NCBI GenBank assembly: GCA_014802175.1
Contig: JAAVCU010000017.1
Span: 1 to 34,815 of the forward strand
Reading direction: 5' to 3'
Source: Bacteroides sp.
GTDB lineage: Bacteria > Bacteroidota > Bacteroidia > Bacteroidales > Muribaculaceae
DNA length: 34,815 nt
Shown here: piece after piece, positions 23,273 to 34,189 of the stretch
Layout of the letters: each line of letters starts with the position of its first letter
Position numbering within the stretch: the first letter of the stretch is position 1
Notes under the pieces: generated by a model
The model's input: the letters and a program-made list of their open reading frames with translations, nothing else
What the model was told of the DNA's origin: nothing
Database searches by the model: none
Made by a program: the position numbers and the translations under genes

Positions 23273-23303
23273 TTGTGTAATTCACTTAGTTTTAGTAATT
23301 TTG
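23273..23303 (+). promoter_or_regulatory. Promoter of the str operon
   Basis: TTG (23273-23275) and TAATTTTG (23296-23303) are separated by 20 nt, upstream of a leader of about 140 nt before rpsL. Confidence 0.65.
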
Positions 23304-23318
23304 TGGAGCCAAAAGAAC

Positions 23319-23391
23319 AGGATTCTTTGAGTTGTGCGGTTAAATAATTGGGTGTCAATTATTTAACGCGCATAATGTGCGTAGGAATCTT
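23319..23391 (+). promoter_or_regulatory. Structured leader upstream of rpsL
   Basis: AGGATTC (23319-23325) can pair with GAATCTT (23385-23391, one G-T) to enclose a perfect 11-bp hairpin GTTAAATAATT/AATTATTTAAC (23339-23349 and 23357-23367, 7-nt loop). Such a fold at the head of the str operon would suit autogenous control by a ribosomal protein (inference). Confidence 0.5.
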
Positions 23392-23451
23392 GTTTGATTT
23401 TGAACTGACAAAGAAGTTATAAATCAAATAAATCAAAAAAAGAGACTAAGA

Positions 23452-26921: not shown

Positions 26922-26953
26922 TATCGCTAAGAGAATAATAACAGAATAATCAT

Positions 26954-26980
26954 GGAAGGCTCCGGCCTCCGGAGCCTTCC
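26954..26980 (+). promoter_or_regulatory. Perfect 12-bp hairpin between rpsJ and rplC
   Basis: GGAAGGCTCCGG (26954-26965) pairs exactly with CCGGAGCCTTCC (26969-26980) around a CCT loop. No T run follows directly, so it is not a standard terminator. It sits 28 nt before the rplC ATG and could set the ratio of uS10 to the downstream proteins, or bind one of them. Confidence 0.6.
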
Positions 26981-27008
26981 AATCAACCACAATAATTTTA
27001 AAAAAGAA

Positions 27009-30891: not shown

Positions 30892-31323
30892 ATGTTACAA
30901 CCTAAGAAAACCAGATACCGCCGTTCACAAAAAGGCCGTATGAAAGGTGAGGCCCAGCGTGGCAACCAGCTTGCATTCGGTTCGTTCGGTATCAAGACAC
31001 TTGATTCTAAATGGATCACCGGTCGTCAGATCGAGGCTGCCCGTATCGCCGTTACTCGTTACATGCAGCGTCAGGGTCAGATCTGGATCCGCATCTTCCC
31101 GGACAAACCCATCACTAAGAAACCTGCAGAGGTCCGAATGGGTAAAGGTAAAGGTAATCCCGAGGGATTTGTTGCGCCTGTTACTCCGGGACGCATCCTG
31201 ATCGAAGTTGAGGGCGTTCCTTACGATGTTGCAAAAGAGGCACTTCGTCTGGCAGCTCAGAAACTTCCGGTAATCACCAAGTTTGTGGTTCGCCGCGACT
31301 ACGATCCCTCACAGAACATCTAA
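30892..31323 (+). CDS. rplP: 50S ribosomal protein uL16
   Basis: The 143-residue protein starts [20 protein letters not shown] and shows [20 protein letters not shown], the conserved basic [20 protein letters not shown] and the region around the hydroxylatable arginine. It helps form the A-site tRNA pocket. It is the last gene before a strong terminator, so the first part of the superoperon ends here. Confidence 0.97.
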
Positions 31324-31331
31324 TAAAATCG

Positions 31332-31375
31332 AGTTAAGTTTTATCCGGCTCGCCGGGTGAAACTTAACTTTTTTT
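31332..31375 (+). terminator. Strong terminator between rplP and rpmC
   Basis: AGTTAAGTTT (31332-31341) pairs with AAACTTAACT (31360-31369), and inside it ATCCGGC pairs with GCCGGGT around a 2-nt loop. The hairpin is followed by a T run (31369-31375). This is the strongest plus-strand terminator in the window, only 9 nt after rplP. Confidence 0.92.
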
Positions 31376-31427
31376 ATAAAAAGCGATAAAAAAAGCCTAA
31401 AAATTTTCATAATAGCAAATAATTCAG

Positions 31428-31435
31428 TAACTTTG
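31428..31435 (+). promoter_or_regulatory. -7 box of the rpmC operon promoter
   Basis: TAACTTTG is a perfect -7 box about 50 nt past the terminator and about 140 nt before rpmC. A convincing TTTG at -33 is not seen (the region is AT-rich), but the placement right after a terminator supports a real promoter. Confidence 0.6.
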
Positions 31436-31451
31436 CGGAAAATATGGATTT

Positions 31452-31504
31452 TGCAAGTTGAATCCGGAGGTGCGAAACAGTCGCTCCGCCCAGATTAACT
31501 TGCA
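31452..31504 (+). promoter_or_regulatory. Folded leader RNA upstream of rpmC
   Basis: TGCAAGTT-g-AATC (31452-31464) pairs with GATTAACTTGCA (31493-31504), 12 pairs with one bulged G. Inside, CGGA/TCCG and GCGA/TCGC (31465-31488) form a bulged hairpin with an AACAG loop. The element starts about 12 nt after the predicted start site and lies 70 nt before the rpmC ATG. A 5-codon ORF (MDFAS) overlaps its start. It is a good candidate for a ribosomal-protein leader. Confidence 0.6.
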
Positions 31505-31576
31505 TTTAATCGCGTAAATTAGAGCTCTTTAAGGGGCGTTAAACGAGAAAACAACAAACAGAGATAATTAACATAA

Positions 31577-31798
31577 ATGAAAAAGGAAGAAATCAAGGAA
31601 TTAAGCATTCAGGAGCTGACAGCACAGATAGAGGCTGCAGAGAAGGCTTATCGTGAATTGAAAGTAGCGCACGCGATATCTCCCATCGACAATCCCGCGA
31701 AGATCACTCGTGATCGTCGCGATATTGCCCGCTTGAAGACAGTGTTGCGCCAGAAGGAAATCGCCGCCGCCAAGGAGGCCGCTTCTGAAGTAAAGTAA
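31577..31798 (+). CDS. rpmC: 50S ribosomal protein uL29
   Basis: The 73-residue helical protein begins MKKEEIKELSIQELTAQIEA and has the conserved NPAKITRDRRDIARLKTVLR. It binds near the tunnel exit next to uL23. It is the first gene of the second ribosomal unit, behind its own promoter and structured leader, 253 nt from rplP, the largest gap in the superoperon. Confidence 0.96.
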   Translation: MKKEEIKELSIQELTAQIEAAEKAYRELKVAHAISPIDNPAKITRDRRDIARLKTVLRQKEIAAAKEAASEVK

Positions 31799-33642: not shown

Positions 33643-33657
33643 TCTAACGATTGCCGG

Positions 33658-33718
33658 CGGCCTCCGGCTCCGCCGATAACGAGAAGGCGGACGCATGCCA
33701 ACCGCGACCGGGAGGCCG
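33658..33718 (+). promoter_or_regulatory. GC-rich folded spacer between rpsN and rpsH
   Basis: CGGCCTCC (33658-33665) pairs with GGAGGCCG (33711-33718). TCCGCC (33669-33674) pairs with GGCGGA (33686-33691). Short CGC/GCG pairing can close a third arm, giving a possible three-way junction. An alternative CGGCGG/CCGCCG hairpin competes with it. The element is far richer in GC than the rest of the spacer. It could be a uS8 target or a mobile hairpin element. Confidence 0.5.
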
Positions 33719-33790
33719 AACAATAACAGAAAATTTAAGAGAGTATTAAATATTGTTCAGTATATCTGAATCAATTTAACAATCTAAACA

Positions 33791-34189
33791 ATGACTGATC
33801 CAATAGCAGATTATTTGACAAGATTGAGAAACGCTATCCGCGCAGGACACCGCGTGGTAGAGGTTCCGTCTTCAAAAATGAAAAAAGAGATCACAAAGAT
33901 CCTTTTTGACCAGGGCTATATCCTCAACTACAAGTTTGAGGAGGGCAATACCCCCCAGGGTACTATCAAAATAGCTCTGAAGTATGATCCGGTCGACAAA
34001 GTGAACGCAATCAAGAATCTTCACCGCGTTTCTCGTCCGGGTCTTCGCCAGTATACAGGTTACAAAGAGATGCCCCGCGTTCTCAATGGCCTTGGTATCG
34101 CAATCCTTTCAACTTCACAGGGTGTGATGACCAACAAAGAGGCTAAAGAGCGTAAGATCGGTGGCGAAGTATTGTGTTACGTTTATTAA
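33791..34189 (+). CDS. rpsH: 30S ribosomal protein uS8
   Basis: The 132-residue protein begins MTDPIADYLTRLRNAIRAGH and has the conserved GVMTNKEAKERKIGGEVLCY end. uS8 binds helix 21 of 16S rRNA and in E. coli represses the spc operon at a mimic near rplE. Here a folded element lies directly upstream instead. 14 nt precede rplF. Confidence 0.97.
   Translation: MTDPIADYLTRLRNAIRAGHRVVEVPSSKMKKEITKILFDQGYILNYKFEEGNTPQGTIKIALKYDPVDKVNAIKNLHRVSRPGLRQYTGYKEMPRVLNGLGIAILSTSQGVMTNKEAKERKIGGEVLCYVY

Follow-up and report, generated by a model that had tools for sequence, protein, structure and literature searches.

Putative punctuation of the S10–spc ribosomal superoperon between rplP and rpmC, and a conserved hairpin before rpsH, in a genus of the Muribaculaceae

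The rplP–rpmC junction in the window and its relatives

The window, the whole stretch of DNA analysed here, comprises 34,815 nt of a Muribaculaceae genome (JAAVCU010000017.1, positions 1–34,815, forward strand; locus label G000:C17). On the forward strand, rplP (uL16; 30892–31323; Pfam Ribosomal_L16, 2.1e-53) is the open reading frame that ends the upstream S10 half of the ribosomal superoperon, and rpmC (uL29; 31577–31798; Pfam Ribosomal_L29, 2.4e-18) is the one that starts the downstream spc half. Few bacterial gene orders are as well conserved as that of S10–spc, and the joint transcript probably serves to balance the proteins. Here, the two halves are separated by a spacer of 253 nt, between the rplP end at 31323 and the rpmC start at 31577, in which a hairpin with a T run, a promoter box, and a folded leader follow one another in the order expected of a punctuation point.

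The hairpin (31331–31370, forward strand) was identified by a terminator scan as resembling an intrinsic terminator, with 18 counted pairs followed by TTTTTATAAA, and it has a counterpart in locus L124. The fold of 31324–31380 reaches −25.6 kcal/mol (z −7.0). The first-pass annotation had placed a strong terminator 9 nt past rplP; the hairpin itself stands, and its distance from the stop codon is corrected to 7 nt by the scan. The regional scan returned 16 terminator-like sites versus 11.4 (sd 3.8) in shuffled sequences, so their number proves nothing, and the stem at 31331–31370 is the longest of the 16. Elsewhere in the window, a perfect 13-bp hairpin with a 3-nt loop lies between rpsJ and rplC (26953–26981), where the forward strand carries no T run.

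The perfect box that the same annotation had read downstream of the hairpin is confirmed as TAACTTTG at 31428–31435 (forward strand), an exact −7 box of the Bacteroidota sigma-ABfr type, for which the consensus is TAnnTTTG (PMC7366714). It predicts a transcription start near 31441–31443. A single match of this kind is weak evidence, as TAnnTTTG occurs 30 times in the whole window versus 17.2 times in shuffles. By eye, no clear TTTG is seen near −33 of the box, and a scan for sigma-70 type promoters returned no site in the rplP–rpmC spacer; the poor −33 element counts against a punctuation point at this position.

The genus of the window was represented by 111 genomes, 30 of which lack an rplP match and 81 of which contain one (42 of 46 among genomes at least 90% complete); rpmC was matched in 82 of the 111. 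The loci counted are the 77 in which rplP and rpmC adjoin, after the removal of two unreliable rows: L203, the spacer of which is an artefact because the rplP frame is broken in the assembly, and L202, a long branch with an rpmC only 37% identical, which is probably a foreign contig. No rpmC adjoins rplP in L143, which lies at a contig end, or in L154, the locus of genome G052. The outgroup set was drawn from 80 loci selected by uL16 similarity, of which 12 were recognised by eye as belonging to the window's genus, leaving 68.

Outside the genus, the rplP–rpmC spacer measures 2–42 nt in all 68 loci, while within it the range is 12–2,893 nt (median 112 nt, n = 77), where 37 spacers reach 150 nt or more and 19 do not exceed 42 nt; about half (40 of 77) fall into the short group below 150 nt. 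Strong enlargement is confined to rplP–rpmC and rpsN–rpsH among the 12 junctions measured between rplW and rpsH; the others remain at 112 nt or less. TAnnTTTG is present in 22 of the 37 long genus spacers, versus 4.8 expected from shuffles, and in none of the 40 short ones, leaving 15 long spacers without it. This recurrence in relatives gives the box in the window the phylogenetic support that a single match lacks. The flanks of the box are similar in several clades by eye, suggesting common descent. Strict terminator hairpins, for which only the first 300 nt were scanned in spacers longer than 600 nt, occur in 6 of the 37 long spacers, versus 0.2 expected, and in none of the short spacers that reach 30 nt (n = 23).

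The spacer changes rapidly between close relatives. A tree was built by a quick method from 89 rows, which include eight of the 68 non-genus loci, and was flagged for joining two long rows. It implies at least seven changes of promoter state and at least ten of long/short spacer state (86 rows; undirected), with L154 coded by hand as "promoter" and "long" from its separated rpmC. The three species that include the window have a sister clade (L125, L128, L130, L131, and L133), in which the rplP–rpmC spacers of 59–72 nt contain hairpins and, by eye, neither a box nor a T run. At rpsN–rpsH, a promoter box is found in all five rows of this clade and in neither the window nor L126; L124 ends before rpsH. 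A DNA similarity search with the window spacer matched 12 of the 111 genus genomes, including the window's own, but the alignment was extensive in G072 alone (86% across the first 131 nt, which hold the terminator and promoter), the remaining matches being 27–52 nt long. One of the matches, in G053, lies on contig C51, whereas the rpmC of that genome is on C11; away from rpmC, positions 761–880 of the corresponding locus (L085) hold a TAATTTTG box, after which come letters resembling the window leader, TTGAATCCGGAG, together with a small hairpin.

Several other recurrent sequences are found at the two enlarged junctions. By eye, TACAATAA followed 15–20 nt later by CGTTAT recurs at rplP–rpmC in L166, L171, and L177 and at rpsN–rpsH in L149, L168, L181, and L183, and could represent either a different kind of promoter or an RNA motif. 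A clade-specific element, GGAAAT-GCC-GAATT...AAGTAGGC-ATTTCC, with an outer stem that appears by eye to covary, lies at rplP–rpmC in L189, L190, L175, L198, L193, L194, L184, and L187. Inverted repeats surround the promoter box at rpsN–rpsH in L125, L130, L131, and L133 and at the rpmC promoter of L173, and such repeats, for example CAGGTGCG...CGCACCTG, are possible candidate operators.

In a few relatives, the junction is opened further. The spacer of G110 contains a Sel1-repeat gene, and the 2,893-nt spacer of G049 holds an apparent gene interrupted by an IS4/5-type transposase. In G052, the sister of G049 in the tree, rplP (C36:1600–2028, +) and rpmC (C36:38868–39074, −) lie 37 kb apart on one contig, although misassembly is possible. 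Directly upstream of this rpmC are a TAATTTTG box and a leader which, by eye, has stretches in common with that of G049; a cobalamin riboswitch also lies upstream, on the opposite strand. Judging from the spacer genes and the split genome, these relatives seem not to depend on read-through. Within the genus, the junction appears in closed, punctuated, interrupted, and fully separated form. The claim of the first-pass annotation that the rpmC unit is expressed independently is borne out to this extent: because the box recurs, genes lie inside two spacers, and rplP and rpmC are separated in G052, comparative sequence evidence gives good support to the rpmC half being transcribed on its own.

The folded leader of rpmC

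The predicted start would give the rpmC unit a 5′ leader of about 136 nt (31441–31576, forward strand), which folds below shuffled sequences with a z of −3.78, or −2.96 when 150 nt, including 14 nt of rpmC, are folded. The previously described 12-bp bulged stem around a second hairpin is present in our own reading of the sequence: the main stem (31452–31504, forward strand) pairs 31452–31464 with 31493–31504 in 12 pairs, with a G bulge at 31460, and encloses an inner hairpin. The predicted fold leaves the region around the rpmC start codon without pairing, the 3′ end of the leader is A-rich, and no T run is seen by eye downstream of the stems. The modelled structure therefore neither overlaps the ribosome-binding region nor forms a terminator, and it could still act at a distance.

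The window leader has few counterparts. No Rfam leader family matches the rplP–rpmC spacer at gathering score, and at E up to 10 there are eight chance-type hits, all far under the cut-offs and none of them a leader; across 12 related loci, Rfam identifies only a cobalamin riboswitch. The outer stem, searched as an exact pattern, is found in only 3 of the 111 genus genomes, once per genome in three sister species and each time directly before rpmC. By eye, the rpmC leaders are alike within clades and different between them, and no motif common to all of them is seen. In the leaders of L158 and L204, a short open frame starts with ATG-GCT-GAC-TCT (MADS), possibly encoding a leader peptide.

Folding, in contrast to sequence, is a recurrent property. 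Segments that lie 5′ in the message with z < −2 are found downstream of 17 of 22 rpmC boxes, with differing sequences, and downstream of 21 of 22 rpsH boxes, again with variable sequence. In the window, the rpsL box of the str operon, TAATTTTG, is likewise followed by a leader containing a long hairpin of very high stability (23296–23451; z −6.2).

The conserved element before rpsH

The second enlarged junction of the window, rpsN–rpsH (33643–33790), ends in a conserved hairpin (33739–33784, forward strand) directly before rpsH (uS8; 33791–34189, forward strand), an open reading frame matching Pfam Ribosomal_S8 at 4.7e-50. This spacer varies from 63 to 1,875 nt in 59 genus loci, and several carry a TAnnTTTG box and hairpin of their own, in some cases where rplP–rpmC has none. 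The hairpin, of the form TTAAATATTGTTC-RG-loop-CYGAA-TCAATTTAA or a slight variant, lies at the spacer end in all 59 testable genus loci and in 61 of the 62 outgroup loci (of 68) in which an rpsH start is available, L075 being the single miss. Its 5′ strand contains AATATTG in 62 of 63 rows and its 3′ strand CAATT or TAATT in 63 of 63, with the window included in both sets.

The pairing in this element is conserved through compensatory changes. In 27 distinct rows, 294 of 294 cells are paired in an alignment that was fitted to the model, and 18 cells are changed on both sides versus 4.8 in shuffles (none of 500 as high); such changes affect 3 of 11 pairs (17 of 500 shuffles as high), and further pair types are not above shuffles (301 of 500). 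In the genus set of 33, 99.4% of 363 cells are paired, with 6 two-sided cells versus 2.0 and 2 pairs changed on both sides (52 of 500 shuffles as high). The position is equally consistent, as rpsH lies directly downstream in all 20 whole-genome matches that were fetched, the window included. Whole-genome searches of the order under strict filters identified the element in 36 of 295 and in 25 of 119 genomes, with a single copy in each. In a phylum-wide draw it was identified in 3 of 296 genomes, which all belong to the window's order and include the window itself; these low counts are suggested to reflect the loss of weak matches, since the locus-level test gave 61 of 62. Rfam has no match to the element at gathering, with one chance-level hit at E 7.1. 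When a uS8-type model was searched in 35 sources chosen from the 81 genus loci and L204, the 24 matches, one per source, all lay directly before the rpsH start and none in an rpmC leader.

The uS8 site has been described as A595-(A596-U644), (G597-C643)-U641, A642; in the spc mRNA of E. coli it takes the form A+80-(A+81-U+11) (PMC4176348). Mapped by hand, the rpsH element has the equivalents of A640, U641, A642, U644, and A596; A-U replaces G597-C643, and position 595 is C or U. It resembles the E. coli site at rplE (letters from NC_000913) in an A-x-A-pyrimidine-U-G 5′ strand and an A-A on the 3′ strand of the internal loop, in the same strand order, but differs in its location directly before rpsH. 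In a hand alignment, the 16S rRNA of genus genome G047 has a G at the U641 position, which is a point against simple mimicry. On these sequence features, the element is a strong candidate for autoregulation by uS8, and a better candidate within this operon than the rpmC leader.

A putative punctuation point and its alternatives

The arrangement is likely to be that of a superoperon punctuated between rplP and rpmC by a terminator, a new promoter, and a putative protective 5′ leader hairpin. Transcripts of the S10 half would stop at the hairpin downstream of rplP, and a housekeeping promoter would start a separate rpmC-rpsQ-rplN-... message. Its leader, about 136 nt long, would open with a strong stem-loop and close with A-rich, unpaired sequence around the start codon. 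The stem-loop would most likely act as a cap-like 5′ hairpin, protecting a message that is highly expressed and leaving the start region open, a role that would place little demand on the leader sequence. Besides the poor −33 element, the 15 long spacers without TAnnTTTG, the 40 short genus spacers, and the small number of strict terminators weigh against this reading.

Two alternative readings concern the boundary itself. The hairpin at 31331 may be a processing or stabilising 3′ element, with the rpmC message produced mostly by read-through and topped up by the promoter. Hairpins without a box or T run in the sister clade, and the rarity of strict terminators (6 of 37 long spacers), agree with this reading, but it is made unlikely by the 18 pairs and T run of the window hairpin, and by the spacer genes and the split genome, which suggest that relatives can do without read-through. 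It is highly improbable that the spacer is a drifting, weakly selected remnant of insertions, in which the box and stems are incidental. Its length does shift quickly, with at least ten long/short changes over the 86 rows of the tree, but the box is well above shuffles and confined to long spacers, its flanks are alike by eye in several clades, the leaders fold below shuffles, and most of the other junctions remain tight.

A further alternative concerns the leader, which the first-pass annotation had proposed to bind an encoded protein such as uL29, uS17, uL14, or uL24. In this reading, one of these, or another protein encoded downstream, would bind the stem at a newly evolved, clade-specific site and repress its own message. 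The leader folds better than shuffles and is long for its phylum, the median 5′ UTR of B. thetaiotaomicron being 32 nt, with 13.5% exceeding 100 nt (PMC7366714), and restriction to particular lineages is common among ribosomal leaders (PMC7247131, Table 1). The window type (family A, three members) is too small for a covariation test. Two-sided changes affect 3 of 20 pairs in family B (four sequences), where 10 of 500 shuffles reach the covariation score but 53 of 500 reach the two-sided count. In family C (five sequences) they affect 8 of 34 pairs, but with an unfavourable covariation term (+1.44) and with many pairs that one sequence or another cannot form. The restriction of the exact window pattern to 3 of 111 genomes, the unlike leaders at the same position in other clades, the unpaired rpmC start, the missing Rfam match, and the absence of uS8-type matches from the rpmC leaders of the 35 sources also argue against a binding site, and autoregulation through this leader is doubtful. 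With moderate confidence, a general protective 5′ element is preferred for the main hairpin over a specific protein site, because leader types are lineage-specific, the rpsH and rpsL leaders fold too, and the rpmC start is predicted to be unpaired.

More speculatively, and improbably in our estimation, the two junctions could be evolving punctuation points at which promoter, terminator, and a rapidly exchanged leader come and go between sister species, with some rpmC leaders being young autoregulatory sites that postdate the split; the birth of ribosomal autoregulation would then be traceable within one genus. As the junction appears in this genus at stages from closed to separated, one can ask how protein balance survives the break-up of an operon.

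In E. coli, a punctuation point splits the S10/spc cluster into two halves between rpsQ and rplN, where the gap is 164 nt, and rplP and rpmC overlap by one base. The boundary described here is alike in dividing the cluster into halves, but the cut lies two genes earlier, between rplP and rpmC. As in published accounts of insertions into ribosomal clusters, inserted genes are followed by a loss of synteny in some species; those accounts, as far as available, place insertions at rpoBC/str, str/S10, or rplL/rsmC, whereas here a single junction inside the S10–spc unit is affected and the stages are visible within a single genus.

The accessible, mostly open literature on Bacteroidetes leaders, uS8/rpsH, and S10/spc organisation describes neither this rplP–rpmC split nor the rpsH element, and a search for papers on Muribaculaceae ribosomal operons returned none. 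The ribosomal operon BT_2700–BT_2731 of B. thetaiotaomicron presumably includes rplP–rpmC. This operon is among the longest transcripts of that organism (PMC7366714), and the regulation of spc outside Gammaproteobacteria is described as unknown in the available text of a review (PMC10931766). The table of 20 leaders in PMC7247131 contains none for uL29, uS17, uL24, or uS8, and that paper does not mention rpmC or rpsH; leaders for S4 (rpsD) and L13 (rplM) are listed there for Bacteroidia (Table 1). The leaders described here resemble those S4 and L13 leaders in being structured, lineage-restricted, and located before ribosomal genes, but differ from them in the genes that they precede.
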